Counted from the stretch's first letter, positions 4,061 to 14,672 are shown. The stretch is DNA of 16,630 nucleotides from Candidatus Latescibacterota bacterium (GCA_016209865.1 JACQVL010000246.1:1-16630); one strand, 5' to 3'. A program made the numbers and translations. The notes: generated by a model from the letters alone, not told the origin.

Positions 4061-4963
4061 ATGGACGACTCGATGCATGAGAAGCCGGATATCAGAGAGC
4101 GGATGATGAATGTCCCGACGTCGAAGTCGCACGCGCCCGAGGATCAATCCCTCGATATCTACCTGCGTGAAATCCGGGAGATTCCGCTCCTCTCCGCCGA
4201 GGAGGAGATCGCGCTGGCCCAGTCTGTCCGTCGGGGGGAGCGCGACGCGTTGAATAAGCTCGTCCAGTCGAACCTGCGGTTCGTCGTCGCCGTCGCCAAG
4301 CAATACCAGAATCAGGGCCTCCCGCTGTCTGATCTGATCAACGAGGGCAACCTCGGCCTCATCAAGGCCGCGGAGCGGTTCGACGAGGCCAAAGGGTTCA
4401 AGTTCATCTCGTACGCGGTCTGGTGGGTCCGCCAGGCGATCCTGCAGGCCTTGGCCGAGCAGTCCCGCATCTTCCGGCTCCCGCTCAACCGGGTCGAGGA
4501 ACTCCGGCGGATCAATAAAGTGCTTCGCGGCCTCAAGCAGGAGTATGGCCGGGAGCCCAGTACCCTCGAGATCGCCGAACAACTCTCGATGAACCAGAAC
4601 GACATCGCGGACACGCTGAAGATGTTCAGCACCCATCTCTCTCTGGACGCGTCGTTTAACTACGGGGAAGACGGTCGACTGCTGGACATCCTGGAGGACA
4701 AGACCCAGGAATCCCCGGACGGCCGGTTGATGGACAGCGCGTTGAAAGAAGAAGTCCACTGGGCGCTCAACACCCTGTCTGCCCGCGAGGCGGAGGTCGT
4801 GCGCCTGTATTTCGGGATCGATGAGGACCGGCCGTTCACCCTCGACGAGATCGGCAGGCGATTCGGACTCACGCGGGAGCGGGTCCGGCAGATCAAGGAA
4901 CGGGCCATCCGGCGGCTCCAGCACAGTTCGCGCAGTATGCGATTGAGGCCGTATATGAATTAG
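4061..4963 (+). CDS. rpoD: RNA polymerase primary-type sigma factor (sigma-70, short form)
   Basis: A 300-residue sigma-70 protein. It begins with region 1.2 (DQSLDIYLREIREIPLLS, from residue 28), has region 2 with the core-binding and -10 recognition helix (NLRFVVAVAKQYQNQG, and YAVWWVRQAILQAL from residue 118), region 3 (LNRVEELRRINKVLRGL), and region 4 with the -35 binding helix-turn-helix (FTLDEIGRRFGLTRERVRQIKERA, from residue 259, given here as a motif in two halves around GLTRERV). Region 1.1 and the long non-conserved insert of E. coli RpoD are absent, as in primary sigma factors of Bacteroidota, Chlorobi and relatives. It therefore may be the housekeeping sigma factor (rpoD/sigA) or a group 2 paralogue. 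ATG 4061 is chosen because GGAG lies 6 nt upstream. It is transcribed from its own promoter; a heptamer inverted array starts in its stop codon. Confidence 0.9.
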   Translation: MDDSMHEKPDIRERMMNVPTSKSHAPEDQSLDIYLREIREIPLLSAEEEIALAQSVRRGERDALNKLVQSNLRFVVAVAKQYQNQGLPLSDLINEGNLGLIKAAERFDEAKGFKFISYAVWWVRQAILQALAEQSRIFRLPLNRVEELRRINKVLRGLKQEYGREPSTLEIAEQLSMNQNDIADTLKMFSTHLSLDASFNYGEDGRLLDILEDKTQESPDGRLMDSALKEEVHWALNTLSAREAEVVRLYFGIDEDRPFTLDEIGRRFGLTRERVRQIKERAIRRLQHSSRSMRLRPYMN

Positions 4964-5083
4964 TGACGAGTGACAAGTGACGAGTAAAAGACGATCATGC
5001 CAGATCACATTCAGCCCTGGTAATTGTCGTCAATACATCAGTTTTCTTTACACTCGCCACTCGTCACCCGTCACTCGTCACTG
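4963..5083. repeat. Inverted heptamer array A (GTGACGA type)
   Basis: The left arm has three tandem 7-nt units, GTGACGA-GTGACAA-GTGACGA (4963-4983), then GTAAA (4984-4988). After a 58-nt spacer the right arm begins TTTAC (4047 plus 1000, i.e. 5047-5051) and has four reverse-complement units: TCGCCAC, TCGTCAC, CCGTCAC, TCGTCAC (5054-5081). The GTAAA/TTTAC pair flanks the spacer symmetrically. The first unit uses the G of the sigma factor stop codon. The arms can form a long imperfect hairpin. It has no coding content; a frame running through it into xylB (from TTG 5024) is an artefact. Confidence 0.85.
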
Positions 5084-5090
5084 TGTTTTG

Positions 5091-5096
5091 AAGGAG
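5091..5096 (+). promoter_or_regulatory. Ribosome site deciding the xylB start
   Basis: AAGGAG lies 5 nt before ATG 5102. The upstream in-frame TTG at 5024 would add 26 residues (SLHSPLVTRHSSL type) that come from the heptamer repeat, so the ATG is preferred. Confidence 0.8.
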
Positions 5097-5101
5097 CCCT
5101 C

Positions 5102-6643
5102 ATGCGCCATCTCATCGGCCTTGATGTCGGAACCACCGGCGTCAAAACCATCCTCGTCGATGAGCGGGGAACGGTCTTAGCGAGCGCGTTTGAAGCATAC
5201 CCCCTGTCAACTCCCTCCCCCAACTGGGCAGAGCAGGACCCGGCGGACTGGTGGCGCGCGACGGTCGAGACGCTCCAGGACGTCGTCACCGCCTCCCAGG
5301 TCGACCCTGCAACGATCGCCGGGATCGGCCTCTCCGGCCAAATGCACAGCTCCGTCCTCTTAGACGAACACGATCAGGTGCTCCGTCCCTCCATCCTCTG
5401 GTGCGATACCCGCACGACCGCCCAATGCCGCTGGATCACGGAGACCGTCGGCCTCGACCGCTTAGCGTCGTACGTGTCCAACCCGGCGCTCGAAGGGTTC
5501 ACCGCCCCGAAGCTCATCTGGGTGCGCGACCATGAGCCGGACGTGTACCACAAAATCCAGCACGTCATCCTTCCGAAGGATTACATCCGGTTCAAGCTGA
5601 CGGGCGTGTACGCGATGGAAGTGTCGGACGCCGCCGGGACGCTCCTGTTCGACGTCAAGAACCGGCGGTGGTCGCACGAATTGATGCACGCCATCGGTCT
5701 TGCCCCGGAGTGGATGCCCCCATGCTACGAATCGATCGATGTGTGCGGGACGGTCACGCCGGCGGTGGCGGAGGCGACCGGCCTGAAGGCCGGGACGCCC
5801 GTTGTCGGTGGGGGAGCGGATAACACCTGCGGCGCGGTGGGCAACGGCATCGTCCGGGCCGGACGGGTGCTGTCCAGTCTCGGCACGTCGGGCGTCGTGT
5901 TCGCCCACACCGACGACGTCCGGGTCGATCCCGACATGCGCGTTCATACGTTCTGCCACAGCGTCCCCCACAAGTGGTACCTGATGGGCGTGACCCTGTT
6001 CGCGGGCGGGTCGTTCCGCTGGTACCGCGACACGTTGGGCGAGCTCGAGGTCAGCATGGGGCGGCTGGCGAACATCGACCCGTACGAATTGCTCACCCTC
6101 GAGGCGGAACGGGCCCCGGTCGGCAGTGAAGGGCTGATCTTCCTCCCCTACCTGATGGGTGAACGGACCCCGCACAAGGACGCCAACGCCAAAGGGATGT
6201 TCTTCGGCCTCACCGGACGGCATGACCGGAGCCATCTCATCCGATCCGTGATCGAGGGGATCACCTACGCCATGCGAGATTCGCTCGAGATCGTCCGCGG
6301 ACTCGGACTCTCCATCGCCCAGATCCGGACGACGGGCGGGGGCGCGCGGAGCCCGTTTTGGCGGCAGGTCCAGGCGGATATCTACGGCGCGGAAGTCGTC
6401 ACCATCAACGTCGCCGAAGGGCCTGCGTTCGGGGCGGCCATCTTAGCCGGCGTCGGCACCGGCCTGTTCACGAGCGTGGAAGAGGCGACCGATGACCTTG
6501 TCCGGATCGTCACCCGCACCGAACCGAACGCGACCGCGTCCTCATGGTATGACCGCTACTATCAGGTGTTCAAAGGACTGTATCCTGCGTTGAAACCGAG
6601 TTTCGATCAGGTGTCTGACCTGGTCCGAGCACAGACGAAGTAA
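5102..6643 (+). CDS. xylB: Xylulokinase (FGGY family)
   Basis: A 513-residue carbohydrate kinase of normal xylulokinase length. It phosphorylates D-xylulose with ATP to xylulose 5-phosphate, feeding the pentose phosphate pathway. Motifs in order: GLDVGTTGVKTILVDERG (phosphate-binding loop, residues ~6-23), GLSGQMHSSVLLDE with WCDTRT (sugar site, the Gln-Met-His signature of xylulokinases), GGGADNTCGAVG with the presumed catalytic base D240, SLGTSGVVF, LPYLMGERTPHKDA and TTGGGARSPFWRQ with EGPAFGAA at the ATP site. GQMH and GERTPH favour xylulokinase over glycerol kinase. The start ATG 5102 has AAGGAG 5 nt upstream. It lies between heptamer arrays A and B, so its transcription may come from the sigma factor promoter or from an unseen promoter. 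Confidence 0.92.
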   Translation: MRHLIGLDVGTTGVKTILVDERGTVLASAFEAYPLSTPSPNWAEQDPADWWRATVETLQDVVTASQVDPATIAGIGLSGQMHSSVLLDEHDQVLRPSILWCDTRTTAQCRWITETVGLDRLASYVSNPALEGFTAPKLIWVRDHEPDVYHKIQHVILPKDYIRFKLTGVYAMEVSDAAGTLLFDVKNRRWSHELMHAIGLAPEWMPPCYESIDVCGTVTPAVAEATGLKAGTPVVGGGADNTCGAVGNGIVRAGRVLSSLGTSGVVFAHTDDVRVDPDMRVHTFCHSVPHKWYLMGVTLFAGGSFRWYRDTLGELEVSMGRLANIDPYELLTLEAERAPVGSEGLIFLPYLMGERTPHKDANAKGMFFGLTGRHDRSHLIRSVIEGITYAMRDSLEIVRGLGLSIAQIRTTGGGARSPFWRQVQADIYGAEVVTINVAEGPAFGAAILAGVGTGLFTSVEEATDDLVRIVTRTEPNATASSWYDRYYQVFKGLYPALKPSFDQVSDLVRAQTK

Positions 6644-6666
6644 GCTACCCACATCCTCCCCACTCC

Positions 6667-6771
6667 ATTTTGGATTTTGGATTGCGGATTTGGATTGATC
6701 CTGCGTTGATAGTCTTCTGCATTGATGGTCTCATGCCGTTAATCCAAAATCCAAAACCTAAAATCCAAAAT
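6667..6771. repeat. Inverted heptamer array B (ATTTTGG type)
   Basis: It begins 23 nt after the xylB stop. Left arm: ATTTTGG, ATTTTGG, ATTGCGG, a 6-nt ATTTGG and ATT (6667-6696). Spacer of 44 nt (6697-6740). Right arm: AAT then CCAAAAT, CCAAAAC, CTAAAAT, CCAAAAT (6741-6771). The spacer holds a 16-nt imperfect tandem duplication (6701-6716 and 6717-6732). The arms are complementary with G-U pairs in RNA. No poly-U run follows, so it is not a standard terminator. The rest of the 163-nt gap holds only the ribosome site of the next gene. Confidence 0.85.
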
Positions 6772-6806
6772 CGCAGTCTGTCCTCTCATCCTATGAGGTG
6801 CCCCCT

Positions 6807-8288
6807 ATGACAACGTTCCACAACTACATCGGCGGTCGATGGGTGGATACCGCCCCGGGCAGGCGGTTCGAGAACATCAACCCGGCGACCGGAGAAGCCC
6901 TGGGACTCTTCCCCCGTTCCAGTACGGAAGACGTCCGCAAGGCCGTCGATGCGGCAGAACAGGCGTTCACAGAGTGGCGGTTGATGCCCGCGCCCAAACG
7001 GGGAGAGATTCTGTTCCAGGCCGGCCAGCTCTTAGTCGAACGGAAGGAGGAGGTTGCCCGCGACATGACCCGTGAGATGGGCAAAGTCCTCAAAGAAGCC
7101 CGAGGGGACGTGCAGGAAGCCATCGACATGGCCTTCTTCGCCGCCGGAGAAGGCCGGCGGCTCTTGGGCACCACGTCCCCGCCTGAACTCCCGAACAAAT
7201 TCGGGATGTCCGTCCGGATGCCCATCGGGGTCGTCGGCATCATCACCCCCTGGAACTTCCCGATGGCCATCCCGTCCTGGAAGATTTTCCCCGCCCTCGT
7301 CGCCGGGAACACCATCGTCTTCAAACCCGCCCGGTACACGCCCCATTCCGCGTACAACTTCGTCAAGACGCTGGAAGACGCCGGCCTGCCCGGTGGGGTC
7401 CTCAACCTCGTCTTCGGGTATGCGGATGAAGTCGGTGATCCTCTCGTCGCCGACCCACGCGTCGGGCTGATCTCGTTCACCGGCTCGACGTCTGTCGGGA
7501 CGAAGCTGGCGACGGAGTGCCCGAAGACACAGAAGCGGGTCTCCTTAGAGATGGGCGGGAAGAACGCGATCACCGTCTTAGACGACGCGGATGTTGACCT
7601 GGCGATCGACGGCATCCTCTGGAGCGCGTTCGGGACGACCGGCCAGCGGTGTACCGCGGGCAGTCGGGTGATCGTCCACCGGGCGGTGGTGGACGAACTC
7701 ACGGAGAAGCTCGTCGCCCGCACGAACAAGCTCAGGCTGGGGAACGGACTGGACGAGACGGTCGACGTCGGCCCGGTCGTCAACGAGAACCAGCTCGACA
7801 CCGTCCACCGGTACACCGAGATCGGCCTCGCAGAAGGCGCCACCCTTCTGTGCGGCGGAGAACGGGCGACGGACGGCGACCTCGCGAAGGGATTCTTCTA
7901 CCGTCCCACCCTCTTCGGGAACGTGAAGCCCACGATGCGAATCGCCCAGGAGGAAATCTTCGGTCCGTCGACCGCCATCATCCCGGTCGATTCCTTCGAG
8001 GAGGCGATCCAGGTCAATAATGGAACCCTCTACGGACTTTCCTCATCCATCTATACTCGTGACGTGAACCGGGCGTTCGCCGCCATGCGCGACCTGTACA
8101 CCGGGATCGTGTACGTCAACTCCGGGACGATCGGGGCGGAGATCCATTACCCGTTCGGAGGAACCAAAGGAACCGGCAACGGTCATCGTGAAGCGGGTCA
8201 AACCCTCCTCGACGCGTTCACGGAATGGAAGACGATCTACGTCGACTTCAGCGGCAGGTTGCAGAAGGCGCAGATTGATCGAGGGTGA
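6807..8288 (+). CDS. NAD(P)-dependent aldehyde dehydrogenase (semialdehyde type)
   Basis: A 493-residue ALDH-superfamily enzyme that oxidises an aldehyde to the carboxylate with NAD(P)+. The Rossmann cofactor site (TPWNFP with N150, then KPA), FTGSTSVG, the general base E248 in LEMGGKN, the nucleophile C282 in GQRCTA and the EEIFGP motif are all present, so it should be active. The end (IHYPFGGTKGTGNGHREAG) is like bacterial enzymes for succinate semialdehyde or alpha-ketoglutarate semialdehyde, and also ALDH7-type enzymes; the substrate is not settled. ATG 6807 is chosen because GAGGTG (6796-6801) lies 5 nt upstream; the in-frame GTG 6798 is part of that ribosome site. Being between xylulokinase and sucCD suggests a product entering the TCA cycle (inference). 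Arrays B and C flank it. Confidence 0.88.
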   Translation: MTTFHNYIGGRWVDTAPGRRFENINPATGEALGLFPRSSTEDVRKAVDAAEQAFTEWRLMPAPKRGEILFQAGQLLVERKEEVARDMTREMGKVLKEARGDVQEAIDMAFFAAGEGRRLLGTTSPPELPNKFGMSVRMPIGVVGIITPWNFPMAIPSWKIFPALVAGNTIVFKPARYTPHSAYNFVKTLEDAGLPGGVLNLVFGYADEVGDPLVADPRVGLISFTGSTSVGTKLATECPKTQKRVSLEMGGKNAITVLDDADVDLAIDGILWSAFGTTGQRCTAGSRVIVHRAVVDELTEKLVARTNKLRLGNGLDETVDVGPVVNENQLDTVHRYTEIGLAEGATLLCGGERATDGDLAKGFFYRPTLFGNVKPTMRIAQEEIFGPSTAIIPVDSFEEAIQVNNGTLYGLSSSIYTRDVNRAFAAMRDLYTGIVYVNSGTIGAEIHYPFGGTKGTGNGHREAGQTLLDAFTEWKTIYVDFSGRLQKAQIDRG

Positions 8289-8293
8289 AAGAG

Positions 8294-8399
8294 ATTTTGG
8301 ATTTTAGATTTTGGATTTAGGATTGAGAAGGACTGAGTGTCAATTCGACAAGCTGAGTCTAATCTGTCAATCTAAAATCTAAAATCCAAAATCTAAAAT
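8294..8399. repeat. Inverted heptamer array C (ATTTTGG/ATTTTAG type)
   Basis: It starts 6 nt after the aldehyde dehydrogenase stop. Left arm: ATTTTGG, ATTTTAG, ATTTTGG, ATTTAGG, ATT (8294-8324) with unbroken 7-nt phase. Spacer of 44 nt (8325-8368), the same length as in array B but with a different sequence. Right arm: AAT, CTAAAAT, CTAAAAT, CCAAAAT, CTAAAAT (8369-8399), also in perfect 7-nt phase. The mix of G-C and G-U partners means that pairing would be better as RNA than as DNA. The 134-nt gap otherwise holds only the sucC ribosome site. Confidence 0.87.
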
Positions 8400-8422
8400 C
8401 GGGTGGAGAAGGGAGGCAGGGC

Positions 8423-9571
8423 TTGAACATCCACGAATACCAGGCGAAGGACATTTTCTCGAACTACGGCATCCCCATCCCGCGTGGCCGGGTGGCTCGG
8501 ACGCCGGACGAGGCGCGCCAGGTCGCGACGGAGTACGGGACGACCGTGGTCGTCAAGGCGCAGGTGCACGTCGGCGGGCGGGGCAAGGCGGGCGGAGTGA
8601 AGCTCGCCCGAACCCCGGACGAGGCGTCTGACGCCACCAGCCGGATTCTGGGGATGGACATCAAAGGACTGACCGTGAAGCAGGTGCTCGTCACCGAGGC
8701 GATGGGCATCGCCCATGAGGCGTACGTCGGGATCGTGCTCGACCGGAAATCGAAGCGGCCTGTCGTGATGGTCAGCGCGGCGGGCGGGATCGAGATCGAG
8801 CAGGTGGCGCGGGAGACCCCGGAGCAGATCCACAAGCTCGCCGTCGACCCGTTCTTGGGACTGCTGCCGTACCAGGCCCGTGCGCTCGCGTTCAGGCTGT
8901 ACCGTGACCCTCATCAGGCATCGCAGGCGGCGAAGATCGTCGGACAGCTCTACCGGGCATTCATCGAGAGCGACGCGTCCTTAGCCGAGGTCAACCCGCT
9001 CGTCACGACGCCAGCCGGGGCGCTCTGGGCGGTCGACGGGAAGATGAACATCGATGATAACGCCCTCTACCGTCAGCCGGCCATCGCCGGGATGCGCGAC
9101 CCGGACGCGGAGGCGTGGGCGGAGGGAGAAGCGCGGAACGCCAGCCTGAGCTTCGTCAAGCTCGACGGGGACATCGGCTGTGTCGTCAACGGCGCCGGAC
9201 TGGCGATGGCGACGATGGATCTGGTCAAATACTACGGCGGCTATCCCGCCAATTTCCTGGACATCGGCGGCAGCTCCAACCCGGACAAAGTAGTCGCGGC
9301 GATGACGATCATCACCGCCGATCCCAAGGTCCGGGCGATCCTGTTCAACATCTTCGGCGGGATCACCCGGTGCGATGACGTGGCCAACGGTATCGTCACC
9401 GCGCTCGACCGGATCGCCAACGGGCCGTCGGGGCCGTTGAAGCTCCCCATCGTCATCCGGCTGACCGGGACGAACGAGGAGGAGGGACGGCGGATCTTGA
9501 GCACGGTCGGGCTTGTGGCGACAGACACGATGGCGGACGCGGTCGAACGCGCAATCGCGTTGAGTCGATAG
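8423..9571 (+). CDS. sucC: Succinyl-CoA ligase, beta subunit (ADP/GDP-forming)
   Basis: A 382-residue protein, the usual length. With SucD it interconverts succinyl-CoA + ADP + Pi and succinate + CoA + ATP in the TCA cycle. It has the ATP-grasp domain: [11 protein letters not shown] at the N-terminus, the nucleotide-binding loop [12 protein letters not shown] (residues ~49-60), the Mg-binding EVNPLV (E189-N191) and, in the C-terminal CoA-ligase domain, [13 protein letters not shown] and [13 protein letters not shown] contacting the phosphohistidine of the alpha subunit. The start is TTG 8423, the only start consistent with the conserved NIHEYQAK N-terminus, with GGGAGG 6 nt upstream. sucD follows after 12 nt. 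Confidence 0.95.
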
Positions 9572-9583
9572 GGGAGCTCATTC

Positions 9584-10450
9584 ATGAGCATTCTCGTCAA
9601 CGAGGAGACGAAAGTCATCGTCCAGGGCATCACCGGGCGGGATGGGTCGTTCCATACGCGCCAGATGCTCGAATACGGGACGCAGGTCGTGGCGGGGGTG
9701 ACCCCCGGCAAGGGCGGGCAGACGGTCGACGGCGTCCCAGTCTACGACACCGTGCAGGAGGCGGTGGACGCGACGGGCGCCAACACCTCGGTCATCTATG
9801 TCCCGCCCCCGTTCGCCGCCGACGCGATCTACGAAGCGGCCAACGCGGGACTGCGTCTGGGGATCTGCATCACTGAAGGGATTCCGACGCTGGAGATGGT
9901 GCGCGTGTGTGCCTATCTCAAGCAGACGAAGACCCGGCTGGTCGGGCCGAACTGTCCGGGGGTGATCACGCCCGGGGTGGCGAAAGTCGGGATCATGCCC
10001 GGCCCTATCCATCGACCAGGACACGTCGGGGTCGTCTCCCGGAGCGGAACGCTCACGTACGAGATCGTCCATCAATTGACACTCGCCGGGATCGGACAGT
10101 CGACCTGCCTGGGCATCGGCGGGGACCCGGTCATCGGCACGAACTTTCTCGATGCCCTGACGCTGTTCGAGCAGGACCCGGCCACACGGGCGGTGGTGAT
10201 GATCGGGGAGATTGGGGGCACGGACGAAGAAGAGGCCGCCGCGTTCATCAAGCGGAAGATGAAGACGCCGGTCGTGGGGTTTATCGCGGGACGGACCGCT
10301 CCGCCGGGCAAGCGGATGGGACACGCCGGGGCGATCATCTCCGGGGGGACGGGGACGGCGGCGGAGAAGATCGCAGCCCTCAACGCGGCCGGGATTCCAG
10401 TGGCCGACCGCTCTGCCGACGTCGTCGACCTGATCCGTCGGGCGTTGTAG
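9584..10450 (+). CDS. sucD: Succinyl-CoA ligase, alpha subunit
   Basis: A 288-residue partner of SucC. The N-terminal Rossmann CoA-binding domain is seen in [20 protein letters not shown] and [14 protein letters not shown], followed by [17 protein letters not shown] and SRSGTLTYE. The C-terminal domain has the catalytic histidine H247 in [13 protein letters not shown], matching the phosphorylated His246 of the E. coli enzyme. [14 protein letters not shown] is also typical. Start ATG 9584 with GGGGAG 7 nt upstream. The 12-nt spacing from sucC indicates one transcript. The stop is followed within 12 nt by the promoter of the next operon. Confidence 0.96.
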
Positions 10451-10461
10451 CGTTTTTCTTC

Positions 10462-10491
10462 TTGACAATGAGCCTGTATCGGTACTATTTT
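10462..10491 (+). promoter_or_regulatory. Sigma-70-type promoter of the yceD-rpmF-fab operon
   Basis: A perfect -35 box TTGACA (10462-10467) is followed after 18 nt by TATTTT (10486-10491); TACTAT (10483-10488) at 15 nt is a poorer choice. A T-rich stretch (TTTTTCTTC) lies just upstream and the start would be near 10498. The leader to ATG 10558 is about 60 nt. I see no clear FapR- or FadR-like operator in it. Confidence 0.72.
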
Positions 10492-10557
10492 ACATAACTT
10501 ACGAGGACTTCACGCGGCCAGGTTCTGCGCGGGGCCTTCAGCACGGAAGGACGAGGT

Positions 10558-11079
10558 ATGCACATCGACATTCAGAGTCTCGTCGAGGGAATCAACCCGT
10601 TTCGTCTGGATGACGCGCCCGACGGCCTCGTCCTGCCGACGGACGAGGCGACGTTCCCGGCCCCCATCAGTGTCGTCGGCGTCCTCACGAAGACGGGGAA
10701 CAACCTGGTGCTGCACGCGACCATGTCCACGATCGCGATGCTCGAGTGCAGCCGGTGTCTGGCGAGCTACCCGGAACGGATCACCGGGGAGGTCGATGTC
10801 CTCTACCAGCGGGCGGAACGAGGAGCCCCGGTCGTCTTTATTCGAGAGCAGGTGGACGAGATGGAGACGATCGGCTATGACGCCAAGCGGGTCGAGATCG
10901 GCTGGCGGATCGAAGAAGTCATCCGCCTGGCGCTTCCGCTCAAGCCGCTCTGCCGGGAAGACTGCCGGGGGCTTTGTTCGATCTGCGGCACCAACTTGAA
11001 TGAATCCGTGTGCGACTGCCGGCAGGAGTCTGAGGACCCGCGCTGGCAGGTGCTAAAGACGATGTTCAAGTCCCACTGA
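10558..11079 (+). CDS. yceD: DUF177 / YceD family protein
   Basis: A 173-residue protein of the DUF177 (YceD) family, which is encoded immediately before rpmF in most bacteria and has been linked to 23S rRNA accumulation and plastid homologues. Visible features: an N-terminal beta-rich half, a CSRC pair (about residues 63-66), and a C-terminal Cys cluster (LCREDCRGLCSICGTNLN, then CDC) that probably binds zinc. ATG 10558 has purine-rich AAGGACGAGG before it. It is the first gene after the promoter at 10462-10491, and rpmF follows after 20 nt. Confidence 0.88.
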   Translation: MHIDIQSLVEGINPFRLDDAPDGLVLPTDEATFPAPISVVGVLTKTGNNLVLHATMSTIAMLECSRCLASYPERITGEVDVLYQRAERGAPVVFIREQVDEMETIGYDAKRVEIGWRIEEVIRLALPLKPLCREDCRGLCSICGTNLNESVCDCRQESEDPRWQVLKTMFKSH

Positions 11080-11099
11080 TTCCCTCATGGAGGAAAGGC

Positions 11100-11282
11100 A
11101 TGCCGTTACCGAAACGACGCCATTCACGAACGCGAGGCCGCAAGCGCCGGACACACTGGAAGCTCGTCCGGCCCACCGTGACGCCCTGTCCTCATTGCAA
11201 CCAGCCGAGACGCCCTCACCATGTCTGTGTGCATTGCGGGTATTATGACGGGCGAGAAGTCAAGACTCCGGCAAAGGTGTAG
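11100..11282 (+). CDS. rpmF: Large-subunit ribosomal protein bL32
   Basis: A 60-residue basic protein with the bL32 N-terminus PLPKRRHSRTRGRKRRTHW and a four-cysteine zinc ribbon (C30, C33, C43, C46), the zinc-binding C+ form. Start ATG 11100 with GGAGGAAAGG upstream. Located directly after yceD as in most bacteria. In the usual gene order plsX and fabH come next, but here only 42-57 nt separate rpmF from fabD. Confidence 0.95.
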   Translation: MPLPKRRHSRTRGRKRRTHWKLVRPTVTPCPHCNQPRRPHHVCVHCGYYDGREVKTPAKV

Positions 11283-11326
11283 TCCGTGTTCGGCCTTCAA
11301 CCCGGCGAACAACTCGTGCGGTAGAT

Positions 11327-11330
11327 GGAG
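11327..11330 (+). promoter_or_regulatory. Ribosome site favouring GTG 11340 as the fabD start
   Basis: GGAG lies 9 nt before GTG 11340, giving the common FabD start MTVAFLFPGQ. The in-frame ATG 11325 has no ribosome site upstream but would add five residues. The 42-nt gap before it can fold as a small hairpin (GTTC 11288-11291 with GAAC 11307-11310, GCC with GGC inside). Confidence 0.55.
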
Positions 11331-11339
11331 ATCGAACGG

Positions 11340-12302
11340 GTGACGGTTGCGTTTCTCTTTCCCGGCCAGGCGTCCCAGTATGTCGGCATGGGACGCGACC
11401 TGTACGACAGGATTCCCGAAGTCAGCGGGTTGTACGAGCAGGCCAGCATCCTGCTCGGGTTCGACATCGCTCGCTTGTCGTTCGAGGGGCCTGCCGAATC
11501 CCTACGACAGACCGCCTACACGCAGCCCGCCATCTTAGTGCACAGCGTGGCGGCGGCCAGGGTGCTGGTCACACGGGGACTACGTCCCGCCTTCGTCGCC
11601 GGACACAGCCTGGGGGAGTACTCTGCGCTGGTCGTCGCCGGGTCGCTCGATTTTTCAGAGGCCGTCCGGCTCGTCCGTCTTCGCGGCACACTGATGCAGC
11701 AGGCCGGCGAGCGGAGGCCGGGGACGATGGCGGCGCTCATCGGCCTGTCGGCAGAGGATGTCGAGTGCGTCTGCCGGGAGGCGGCGACGGCGGAGGAGCC
11801 GGTTCAGCCCGCCAATTTCAACTCACCGGACCAGATCGCCATCGCGGGGGCCGTGCCCGCGGTCCGGCGGGCGATGGGACTGGCCAAAGCGGCGGGGGCG
11901 AAGCGCGTGATCGAGCTGGAGGTCAGCGGCGCGTTCCATTCCGTCCTGATGGCGCGCGCGCGCGACGGCCTGGCCGACGCGATCACGGATACGCCCATGC
12001 GCCCCTGCGGAGTGCCTCTGATCGCGAACGTGACCGCCCAGCCGGTGTCTGACCCGTTGGACATCCGTCGGTTGTTGATCGAACAGGTCACCAGCCCGGT
12101 CCAGTGGGCGGCTTCGATGCAGACGCTCGCCCGGTTGGGAGCCGATGTGTTCGTCGAAGTCGGCCCCGGTACGGTCTTGCGAGGCCTGATGAAGCGCATC
12201 CTCAAAGATGCTCGAACGCTGAACGCGGATACACTGAAGCAGATCGAGCAGGTCGTGGCGGAACTGGTATGCGGGGACTCCGGGAAAAAATCGCCATCGT
12301 AA
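11340..12302 (+). CDS. fabD: Malonyl-CoA:ACP transacylase
   Basis: A 320-residue enzyme (325 if ATG 11325 is used) that moves malonyl from CoA to acyl carrier protein, supplying two-carbon units for fatty-acid elongation. The N-terminus FLFPGQASQYVGMG, the nucleophile Ser in GHSLGEYSA (residue 90 from this start), the Arg in VRLRGTLMQ, and the catalytic His in GAFHSVLM are all present. The C-terminal EVGPGTVLRGLMKRI is typical. The GTG start is chosen for its ribosome site and its match to the family N-terminus. The 3' end overlaps fabG by 34 nt. An alternating GC tract (11952-11964) lies just after the catalytic His codon. Confidence 0.93.
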   Translation: MTVAFLFPGQASQYVGMGRDLYDRIPEVSGLYEQASILLGFDIARLSFEGPAESLRQTAYTQPAILVHSVAAARVLVTRGLRPAFVAGHSLGEYSALVVAGSLDFSEAVRLVRLRGTLMQQAGERRPGTMAALIGLSAEDVECVCREAATAEEPVQPANFNSPDQIAIAGAVPAVRRAMGLAKAAGAKRVIELEVSGAFHSVLMARARDGLADAITDTPMRPCGVPLIANVTAQPVSDPLDIRRLLIEQVTSPVQWAASMQTLARLGADVFVEVGPGTVLRGLMKRILKDARTLNADTLKQIEQVVAELVCGDSGKKSPS

Positions 12303-13015
12303 CCGGGGCGACGCGGGGGATCGGGTTCGCCATCGCGCGCCGGCTGGCGGAAGAAGGGGTGACAGTGGTTGTCACCAGCCGGGAACAGCAGCGCGCCGAG
12401 GACGCGGCCGGCCGTCTGCGCGCCGATGGCGGGGCCGCGATCGGACTGGCTACGGTCGTCCACGAGGCCGCGAGCGCCGCCGCGATGGTCGGCCGGGTGC
12501 TCGAACAGTTTGGAGCGATCCACATCCTCGTCAACAACGCCGCCACGGTACGGGACAACCTGCTCCTCCGGATGAAACCCCAGGACTGGGATGACGTGAT
12601 CCGGGTCAACCTGGGCGGGGTGTTCCATTGCACCCAGGCGGTCTCCCGTACGATGCTCAAACAGCGGGCGGGGCGTATCATCAACCTGACGTCGATCGTC
12701 GGGGTGATCGGCAACGCGGGCCAGGCGAATTACGCCGCCTCGAAAGCCGGGATTATCGGGTTTACGAAATCGGTCGCTCGAGAACTGGCCTCTCGAGGAA
12801 TTACCGTCAACGCGGTCGCCCCCGGACTGATCGAGACGGACATGACCAGCGGACTGCCGCAGACGGTTCGAGAGGCGTTCATCGCTGATACTCCCCTCGG
12901 CCGTGCCGGTCTCCCGGAGGACGTCGCCGGCGTCGTCGCGTTCCTCGCGTCGGATGACGGGGCGTTCATTACCGGCCAGGTCATCCACGTGGACGGGGGA
13001 CTGGTGATGGCGTAG
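12269..13015 (+). CDS. fabG: 3-oxoacyl-[ACP] reductase
   Basis: A 248-residue short-chain dehydrogenase that reduces 3-ketoacyl-ACP with NADPH in each elongation round. TGATRGIG forms the cofactor loop, NNAA (in HILVNNAATVRD) follows, and the catalytic triad is S142, Y155 and K159 (YAASK). The end PEDVAGVVAFLASDDGAFITGQ with HVDGGLVMA is the usual C-terminus. ATG 12269 gives the normal FabG N-terminus (LREKIAIVTG); it lies inside fabD and has no strong ribosome site, so translation is probably coupled to that of fabD by the 34-nt overlap. Confidence 0.95.
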   Translation: MRGLREKIAIVTGATRGIGFAIARRLAEEGVTVVVTSREQQRAEDAAGRLRADGGAAIGLATVVHEAASAAAMVGRVLEQFGAIHILVNNAATVRDNLLLRMKPQDWDDVIRVNLGGVFHCTQAVSRTMLKQRAGRIINLTSIVGVIGNAGQANYAASKAGIIGFTKSVARELASRGITVNAVAPGLIETDMTSGLPQTVREAFIADTPLGRAGLPEDVAGVVAFLASDDGAFITGQVIHVDGGLVMA

Positions 13016-13027
13016 GAACAACGCGTG

Positions 13028-13045
13028 GGCACAGGCTCACGTGCC
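13028..13045 (+). other. Small hairpin in the fabG-acpP gap
   Basis: GGCAC (13028-13032) and GTGCC (13041-13045) form a 5-bp GC-rich stem with an 8-nt loop, in the 57-nt gap before acpP. It is 15 nt upstream of the acpP ribosome site AGGAGG (13061-13066). It may be a processing or stabilising element, or only chance. Confidence 0.3.
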
Positions 13046-13072
13046 AACGAGTCGTTACAAAGGAGGAGAACG

Positions 13073-13309
13073 ATGGGACTGGAAGAACGGGTCAAGGAGA
13101 TCATCGTCGAGCAGTTGGGCGTCGACGCGGATCAGGTCACCGATACGGCTTCATTCGTGGATGACCTGGGCGCGGATTCGCTCGATACGGTTGAGCTCGT
13201 CATGGCTCTGGAGGAGGAATTCGATGTCGAGATCCCGGATGAGGACGCCGAAAAAATCACCACTGTGCGGGATGCGATCGACTACTTGAAGACGAACAAG
13301 AAATCGTGA
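13073..13309 (+). CDS. acpP: Acyl carrier protein
   Basis: A 78-residue acidic protein that carries growing acyl chains on a 4'-phosphopantetheine arm attached at S36 in the motif [11 protein letters not shown]. The length, acidity and three-helix pattern are standard for the type II fatty-acid synthase carrier. Start ATG 13073 with AGGAGG (13061-13066) close upstream, the strongest ribosome site in the operon, fitting the high expression of this protein. Between fabG and fabF, the usual place. Confidence 0.97.
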
Positions 13310-13321
13310 GGAGACGATCGC

Positions 13322-14560
13322 GTGGCCAATCGTGTCGTCGTGACCGGCATAGGCGTGCTGAGTCCGATCGGACTGACGACGGGCGAATTCTGGGCCGGAC
13401 TGTGTGAGGGACGGAGCGGGATCGGGCCGATCACGAAGTTCGACGTCACCGAATTTCCGGCGAAGATCGCAGGAGAGTTGAAAGGGTTCGTCCCGGAGGA
13501 ACGGATCGACCGCAAAGAGGCTCGCCGGATGGACCCGTTCGTCCAGTACGCAGTCGTCGCCTCGCTCATGGCGGTCGAAGACGCCGGCCTCGACCTGTCA
13601 CACGAGAACCCCAGCCGGGTTGGTGTCCTCTTAGGCTCCGGGATCGGGGGGATCTGGACGTTCGAGACGCAGCACTCCATCCTGATGGAGAAGGGGCCTG
13701 GCCGGATCAGCCCGTTCTTCATCCCGATGATGATCGCGGACATGGCGCCGGGGCACGTCGCCATCCTGCTCGGCCTGAAAGGCCCGAATTACACCACGGT
13801 CTCCGCGTGTGCGAGCGGGGCCCACGCGATCGGGGATGCGTTCCGGTTCCTCCAGCGCGGGGATGCGGACGTGATGCTGACGGGTGGGTCGGAGGCGAGC
13901 ATCTCGCCCATGGCCGTCGGCGGCTTCTGTTCGATGAAGGCGCTGTCGCTCCGCAACGATGCGCCCAGTCGGGCCAGCCGGCCGTTCGATGCAGAACGGG
14001 ACGGGTTCGTCCTGGGCGAGGGCGCGGGGGTGATCGTCCTCGAGACGCTCGACCATGCCGTCAAGCGCGGAGCGCGGGTCTACGCGGAGCTGATCGGCTA
14101 CGCCCCCACCGCCGATGCGTACCACATCACCGCCCCTTGCGTCGACGGAGAGGGCGCGGTCCGGGCGATGCGACTGGCCCTCGAAGACGCGCAGCTCCGG
14201 CCGGAGGAGATCGATTACATCAATGCGCACGGGACGTCCACTCTGATCGGCGACCGGGTCGAGACGATGGCGATCAAGACGGTGTTCGGCGATGCTGCGT
14301 ACCGTCTCGCCGTCAGCTCGACCAAGTCGCTCATCGGGCACCTGTTGGGCGCGTCGGGGGGGGTCGAATTCATCGCCACCCTCCTCTGCTTAGTGCATGA
14401 CGTCGTGCATCCGACGATCAACTATGACTACCCCGACCCGGAGTGCGACCTGAACTACGTGCCCAACACGGCCCAGGAACGCCGTGTCCGCGCGGCGCTG
14501 TCCAACTCCTTCGGGTTCGGCGGCCACAACGTGACACTGGCGATGAAGAAATTCACATGA
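13322..14560 (+). CDS. fabF: 3-oxoacyl-[ACP] synthase II
   Basis: A 412-residue condensing enzyme (KAS II) that joins malonyl-ACP to acyl-ACP. The catalytic Cys-His-His triad is C163 ([10 protein letters not shown]), H303 ([11 protein letters not shown]) and H340 ([12 protein letters not shown]), with the same numbering as E. coli FabF. The C-terminal NSFGFGGHN is conserved. The start is GTG 13322, giving [16 protein letters not shown], with GAGGAG upstream overlapping the acpP stop. With no fabH in the cluster, FabF or a distant FabH must begin chains. A run of eight G (14356-14363) lies in the GASGG codons. Array D begins directly after its stop. Confidence 0.96.
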
Positions 14561-14672
14561 ATTTTGGATTTTAGATTTGGATTTTGGATTGACGGCGATA
14601 CCCCGTGCTTACAATGTATTCATGTCAACCCCAGCTATTGCAAATCCAAAATCTAAAATCCAAAACCAAAAT
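14561..14672. repeat. Inverted heptamer array D (ATTTTGG/ATTTTAG type)
   Basis: It starts on the base after the fabF stop codon. Left arm: ATTTTGG, ATTTTAG, a 6-nt ATTTGG, ATTTTGG, ATT (14561-14590). Spacer about 51 nt. Right arm: AAAT, CCAAAAT, CTAAAAT, CCAAAAC, CAAAAT (14642-14672). The left arm ends GGATTGA, as in arrays B and C. The array end creates a TTGACG (14589-14594), and TACAAT (14610-14615) follows after 15 nt, a poor-spacing promoter candidate for rnc. Confidence 0.85.

Follow-up and report, generated by a model that had tools for sequence, protein, structure and literature searches.

Heptamer arrays at gene ends in a Latescibacterota genome and their association with S23 genes

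INTRODUCTION

Four gaps between genes in a 16,630-nt stretch of DNA from Candidatus Latescibacterota bacterium (GCA_016209865.1 JACQVL010000246.1:1-16630; the window) are occupied by the same arrangement, in which a run of tandem heptamers close to a stop codon is followed by a spacer and then by the reverse-complementary run. What kind of sequence is this, and what placed it at the ends of genes?

Heptamer arrays as such have been reported before. Hundreds of intergenic G-rich arrays, mostly of four units, are found in Xanthomonas (GGGAATC) and Nostoc (GGGGATT), near the 5' neighbouring ORF and with 70–75 convergent inverted pairs per genome; the Xanthomonas figures are 186 arrays and 70 convergent pairs (PMC4692102). 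In Beggiatoaceae, Cyanobacteria and Bacteroidetes, TAACTGA direct repeats form arrays in short intergenic gaps (PMC4679880). A further case is the 23S rRNA IVS of Coxiella, where three GACAGAT heptamers and one GACAGAA lie immediately ahead of the S23p ORF; RNase III excises this IVS from the RNA, cutting at the first repeat, and host function is kept (PMC4990558).

RESULTS

The four arrays of the window

A preliminary description of the window had listed four arrays, and all were recovered at the same positions with total lengths of 121, 105, 106 and 112 nt; TRF found period 7 for both arms of each. The plan is the same in every gap: an upstream stop codon, a G-rich heptamer arm, a spacer, a C-rich inverted arm placed ∼20 nt ahead of the next start, and a ribosome-binding site. 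The genes around the arrays all lie on the plus strand and have ordinary functions (sigma-70 factor, FGGY carbohydrate kinase, aldehyde dehydrogenase, succinyl-CoA ligase beta-like, fabF and RNase III).

In element A, the G-rich left arm (4962–4985, plus strand), which belongs to the AGTGACG family and has four AGT cores, overlaps the stop codon TAG (4961–4963) of the sigma-factor gene. A spacer of 65 nt (4986–5050, plus) separates it from the inverted right arm (5051–5082, minus), which has five cores and ends 19 nt upstream of the kinase start. The left arm of element B (6667–6698, plus; ATTTTGG family) begins 23 nt past the kinase stop codon and is followed by a 42-nt spacer without kinship to the other spacers (6699–6740, plus) and a five-core inverted right arm (6741–6771, minus). 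Element C starts 5 nt past the aldehyde dehydrogenase stop codon with a five-core left arm of the ATTTTGG/ATTTTAG family (8294–8326, plus), continues with a spacer of 42 nt (8327–8368, plus), and closes with a five-core inverted right arm (8369–8399, minus) 23 nt upstream of the sucC-like start. Element D lies immediately 3' of the fabF stop codon; its left arm (14561–14592, plus; ATTTTGG family) has five cores, one of them at 6-nt spacing, its spacer is 49 nt long (14593–14641, plus), and its inverted right arm (14642–14672, minus) stands upstream of the RNase III gene.

Judged by the gene calls, the arrays start as had been described, at or shortly after a stop codon (A overlapping it, B at +23, C at +5 and D at 0 nt), and GGATTGA does end three left arms (B, C and D). 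The spacers of B and C are indeed equal in length, but with the arm limits used here they measure 42 nt and not 44 nt; likewise the spacers range over ∼42–65 nt rather than 44–58 nt, a range that varies with the chosen arm end.

As RNA, the four copies folded much more stably than their dinucleotide shuffles, with z-scores of −7.9, −4.9, −8.4 and −5.1. A scan of the window with Rfam returned 0 matches over the gathering score, and terminator-like sites (a GC stem plus a T run) were neither present nor in excess at the arrays. No array was found in the fabF–rnc gap of any order-level relative; these relatives are too distant for a comparison of junctions, and the genus is represented by this genome alone.

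Arrays across the genome

The window is contig C199 of genome G000 (3.75 Mb in 356 contigs, 83% complete). For a census, 64 contigs picked by number, not by content, were combined with the window, giving 65 contigs and 619,480 b. Period-7 arrays are present far beyond chance: 123 were found, as against 0–2 for each of the control periods 5, 6 and 9–13, 14 for period 8, and 67 for period 14, which is a multiple of seven. A search of the genome with an 18-nt pattern gave 158 hits, and with the pattern reversed as control, 0. Read on the G-rich strand, the heptamer families are ATTTTGG/ATTTTAG, AGTGACG, CGGGATT, TCAGGGG, CGGTGGT, AAGGACG and rarer ones.

Where neighbouring arrays lie no more than 300 nt apart, a G-rich array is followed by a C-rich one in 40 cases, with one GG, one CC and no CG case. 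Alignment recovered 48 paired elements, all with the G-left/C-right topology, and none in 109 control pairings. One reversed pair, with a TTTGTAC arm on the left and GTACAAA on the right, was noted in genome G013 (L327:1813-1914), where it breaks this order.

Placement was scored in tandem gaps between genes called with a codon-usage model. Of 65 G-sense arms, 61 start between −25 and +30 nt from the upstream stop codon (median +4), where random placement would put 40% (binomial p 5e-20), and 23 of the G-sense arms contain the stop codon itself. C-sense arms behave differently, with 3/55 near the upstream stop and 34/55 ending ≤30 nt from the next start. Placement is thus strongly non-random, and the earlier proposal that gene 3' ends carry a defined element is correct.

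The unit of this element is the single five-core arm of ∼31 nt and not a pair copied as a whole. An arm has five (A/G)G-type cores at 7-nt spacing, widened to 8–9 nt in some lineages, and at either end of the element the G-rich strand is directed inward. Array lengths in G000 peak at 24–25 and 30–33 nt, with hardly any longer, and five is the most frequent number of (A/G)G cores in 7-nt phase (69/168). The census includes 44 strict lone arms, and arms are also found in mixed-family pairs, in nested families and flanking unrelated spacers. The lone arms, two-family pairs and nested families show that each arm behaves independently. The preliminary description had tied its defined element both to an inverted partner and to non-random position; position holds (61/65), whereas heptamers without a partner do occur, and the inverted pair has to be given up as the obligatory unit, since many arms genome-wide have no partner or one of another family.

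Within an element, the arms showed no covariation beyond that of the family, left and right being no more alike than swapped family arms, so selection for hairpin pairing is unsupported. We considered whether lone arms might pair over long distances across host genes and rejected the idea (GC same-family 3 versus CG same-family 4). No target-site duplication was seen at the G000 arrays (flank word sharing 3.15 versus 3.12 shuffled), and no spacer homology between copies apart from nested REPs and one tandem gene duplication. The latter concerns L062:192-285 and 1116-1215, two elements with an identical 38-nt spacer; as the similarity runs on into the flanks, it reflects local duplication and not transposition. 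The former is a REP-like palindrome, GTCATTCCCGCG(N)AAGCGGGAATCC (also written GTCATTCCCGCG..GCGGGAATCC), nested in many G000 spacers, for example L040:6334-6391, L057:3267-3360 and L065:4682-4792; yet the assembly has no Y1_Tnp gene.

Association with S23 genes

Three S23 four-helix-bundle proteins (PF05635, 23S_rRNA_IVP, TIGR02436) are encoded in this genome, and the genes of all three (3/3) are flanked by inverted arrays, each of a distinct family, with units GGCAGTG, GGGAGAG and AAGGACG. The GGCAGTG and AAGGACG families also have ORF-less copies. ATTTTGG and AGTGACG are the commonest families here, yet in the 83%-complete assembly they have no S23 gene of their own.

A scan of contigs from one genome per species yielded 80 S23 loci from ∼20 phyla, one archaeon included. 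At a score of ≥14, inverted arms were detected at 59/80 loci, compared with 0/71 far flanks and 2/80 swapped flanks; at ≥16, the counts were 50/80 and 0 in both controls. For about 20% of the S23 genes, no arms could be detected. Seven is the dominant period on 54/67 upstream and 55/63 downstream sides, the remainder being mostly 8. Across phyla, arm lengths peak at 29–32 nt, five is the commonest core count (26/56 downstream, 16/53 upstream), and the heptamer common to the arms is roughly (A/G)G(T/G)GRNT.

Orientation is equally constrained. Among the 49 S23 loci with callable neighbours, 45 lie in sense between codirectional genes, 3 are antisense and 1 is convergent (45 versus 3, p 1e-10). 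Left arms start within ∼25 nt of a stop codon in nearly all codirectional cases, and right arms end ∼20 nt upstream of the next start. It is mainly because this placement rule is identical that we class the ORF-less arrays of the window with the S23 forms, and we regard them as very probably ORF-less members of an S23-associated class of insertion elements.

The association was also compared at the level of genomes, using 20-kb samples. In S23-positive genomes, 10/20 regions contained arrays, 21 in all over 324 kb, whereas the 342 kb from S23-negative genomes contained none (0/20 regions). The Fisher p of 4e-4 is weakened by phylogenetic non-independence, 8/20 negatives belonging to the window's own order. 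Within that order, the S23-positive G013 has 5 arrays in 140 kb, and no array was found in S23-positive G011 (140 kb) or S23-negative G012 (31 kb).

Several loci depart from the common form. The S23 arms at L136, L145, L157, L175 and L168 have period 8 rather than 7, a spacing possibly adapted to the S23 lineage. Much longer arrays exist in some genomes; at L185, a Planctomycetota contig, the arms of an S23 element reach ∼240 nt (26–28 cores) rather than 31 nt. In G023 (contigs C2, C3, C7 and C12) there are 19 S23 matches, many partial, arranged as divergent pairs on opposite strands a few hundred bases apart, which suggests a repeat built from two half S23 genes. Finally, genes of the GxxExxY family (TIGR04256) are flanked by inverted arrays of ∼9-nt units at 5/7 loci examined, namely L340 (G000:C193:3900-5300), L342, L343, L344 and L345, with conserved ends TTTCACCAC...GTGGTGAAA; over 143 genomes, 20/30 GxxExxY-positive genomes are also S23-positive (p 2e-5). 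Could GxxExxY be a second type of cargo for the same design?

Insertion polymorphism between nuoC and nuoD

In Hyphomicrobiales, an S23 element is located between nuoC and nuoD. Of 29 Mesorhizobium species in which this gap was readable, 20 have it empty (−1 to 9 nt) and 9 filled (453–478 nt), the filled gaps holding three distinct S23 lineages. The junction is exact: the empty state reads GCGAAGCAGT^AGGGCGACCC and the filled state GCGAAGCAGT[GAATGGTGAATAG...CTATTCGCCA]AGGGCGACCC, with a clean junction point at CAGT^AGGGCGACCC and no target duplication. The left arm takes its first core, AGT, from the host, and in the filled state the repeat's TGA stands in for the stop codon TAG. At least 7 changes are needed to explain the filled state on a tree of the downstream DNA. 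Interspecies recombination of nuo alleles could contribute to that number, but that one site carries three S23 lineages leads us to argue for repeated insertion.

The miniature mobile element of the preliminary description survives in spirit for the S23-coding relatives, with their clean presence and absence, but not as a classical MITE. Derivation from a DDE transposon is unsupported: there is no target-site duplication, the internal sequence is not common to the copies, and the two arms of one copy resemble each other no more than they resemble the arms of other copies.

DISCUSSION

The arms have a regular anatomy and a strict placement, they are associated with S23 both at the locus and at the genome level, and the S23 form is polymorphic without target-site duplication. 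As a whole, these observations are probably best explained by S23/IVS-type elements and their ORF-less derivatives residing in intercistronic mRNA, a reading whose parts include a hairpin, a pentamer and S23-dependent spread. The coding form consists of a heptamer arm, the S23 four-helix-bundle gene and an inverted heptamer arm, and elements lie in sense between cistrons, reaching from the stop codon of the upstream gene almost to the next ribosome-binding site. Once transcribed, the two arms are predicted to form a ∼30-bp hairpin open to cleavage by RNase III, as demonstrated for the S23-bearing IVS of 23S rRNA; we hold this step reasonably likely, and it would allow insertion between cistrons to be tolerated. 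The fold z-scores and the sense orientation of the S23 forms also support the earlier suggestion of an RNA structure at operon-internal gene ends.

The 44 strict lone arms are unable to form the hairpin. Since lone arms occur and covariation between arms is absent, a function confined to the hairpin is disfavoured, and lone arms are better explained by protein binding to a single arm. The trp RNA-binding attenuation protein (TRAP) is a ring in which every subunit recognises one of a series of evenly spaced, short purine motifs; TRAP is an 11-mer with 4–5 nt spacing and its fold is different from that of S23. An S23 homopentamer may bind the five cores of an arm, one core per subunit, as TRAP does with triplets, a proposal to which we give even odds. 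The likeness to TRAP concerns the proposed way of working only, S23 binding here being putative. The structural relatives of S23 in the PDB, 2gsc and 2rld, have 5 chains each, and the S23p of Xanthomonas is a homopentameric torus (PMC4990558). S23, or S23 bound to an arm, might in addition drive the spread of arms to new stop codons, which we put forward tentatively and at somewhat less than even odds. The sense-only placement would be due either to strand-aware insertion or to selection.

The alternative that survives best is that the arrays are RNA or DNA elements of host regulation (3'-end stabilisers, terminators, G-quadruplexes or protein-binding sites), which selection and not mobility has multiplied, with S23 as a trans-acting RNA-binding regulator. 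Strong RNA folds, sense-oriented placement at gene ends and the genome-level link to S23 speak in its favour, and the G-rich heptamers of Xanthomonas have been examined as quadruplex formers (PMC4692102). We nevertheless consider it unlikely: a terminator-like excess is absent at the arrays, the families are many and some form no G-runs (ATTTTGG, AGTGACG), and species of a single genus differ by gain or loss of the S23 form at the nuoC–nuoD operon site, which carries three S23 lineages.

As tandem 7-nt units in intergenic DNA, the arrays do fall into the descriptive class of heptameric SSRs or STRRs. It seems quite improbable that they are ordinary SSRs produced by polymerase slippage and tolerated at gene ends, with the inverted partner and the S23 link incidental. 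The constant arrangement (40 G-then-C against 0 C-then-G), the sharp arm length of 30–33 nt in G000 with no slippage tail, the strand-specific placement at stop codons (61/65), and the arms around S23 genes (59/80 loci, controls near zero) all speak against slippage, even though heptamers are over-represented among bacterial SSRs (PMC4692102) and the unit variants within arrays resemble SSR decay.

REPINs, which are moved by a RAYT (Y1) transposase encoded elsewhere, resemble the arms in being short dispersed intergenic units, single or in inverted pairs, and the independence of the arms recalls REP/REPIN logic; Y1_Tnp genes also occur in 27/33 S23-positive genomes. REPINs have palindromic units and a Y1 transposase, however, whereas we find repeat arrays and a non-enzymatic pentamer as candidate. 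The arms are not palindromic, G000 (83% complete) has no Y1_Tnp, and heptamer arrays are absent from eight RAYT loci, which together make a mechanism of this kind very unlikely. A retro-mobile element with a reverse transcriptase, in which S23 would act like its homologue Avd of diversity-generating retroelements, is scarcely credible: a relationship between S23 and Avd (NF033474, E=2.7e-6) and the sense-only insertion in transcripts speak for it, but RVT_1 is lacking from G000 and from 22/33 S23-positive genomes, and a reverse transcriptase is not a requirement.

Returning to the reading as S23/IVS-type elements, the closest known system is the 23S rRNA IVS with an S23p ORF of Coxiella and Leptospira (PMC4990558), in which the S23 gene likewise lies within an inverted-repeat stem. 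Stem-forming inverted flanks around an S23 ORF are found at 3 loci in this genome and at 59/80 elsewhere, and the four window copies have the flanks and lack the S23 ORF. The window copies are not IVSs proper, since they stand between protein genes and not inside a 23S rRNA gene, and the comparison is one of how the elements work. Unlike the IVS, the elements here lie at stop codons between the cistrons of protein operons, their arms flank both sides and span a wide range of heptamer families, and in this genome copies without an ORF are the majority.

The heptamers of Xanthomonas and Nostoc were read as one-family G-quadruplex SSRs, without a link to S23 or an insertion polymorphism (PMC4692102). 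The solved S23 pentamer 2gsc (XCC0516) comes from Xanthomonas campestris. The TAACTGA arrays resemble our right arms in lying mostly just ahead of starts, some overlapping upstream stops, but they consist of one sequence, almost never form inverted pairs, and were proposed to be post-transcriptional regulators (PMC4679880). Earlier work thus covers heptamer arrays, their pairing in inverted orientation and a single case linked to S23; for the general link, we found no paper in the open-access literature that joins S23 to genome-wide heptamer arrays, to a five-core arm or to insertion at stop codons.

In its widest form, the argument would point to a mobile class without transposase or reverse transcriptase, present in ∼20 phyla, in which an S23 ring reads the five cores and so allows sense insertion of arms, together with the S23 gene between them, at stop codons of translated operons, with RNase III excising the insert from mRNA; this generalisation we hold to be rather doubtful. 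S23/TIGR02436 proteins are widely annotated and have no function assigned to them; accounts of heptamer repeats are scattered and treat them by turns as SSRs, quadruplex formers or regulators. The present data join the two in many phyla, under an exact rule of placement and with an arm whose five cores match the known pentamer. Linking S23 with heptamer arms makes both testable, including by a cheap binding assay, and the nuoC–nuoD gap of Mesorhizobium offers a natural system for the entry into stop codons of an element without a recognisable transposase.
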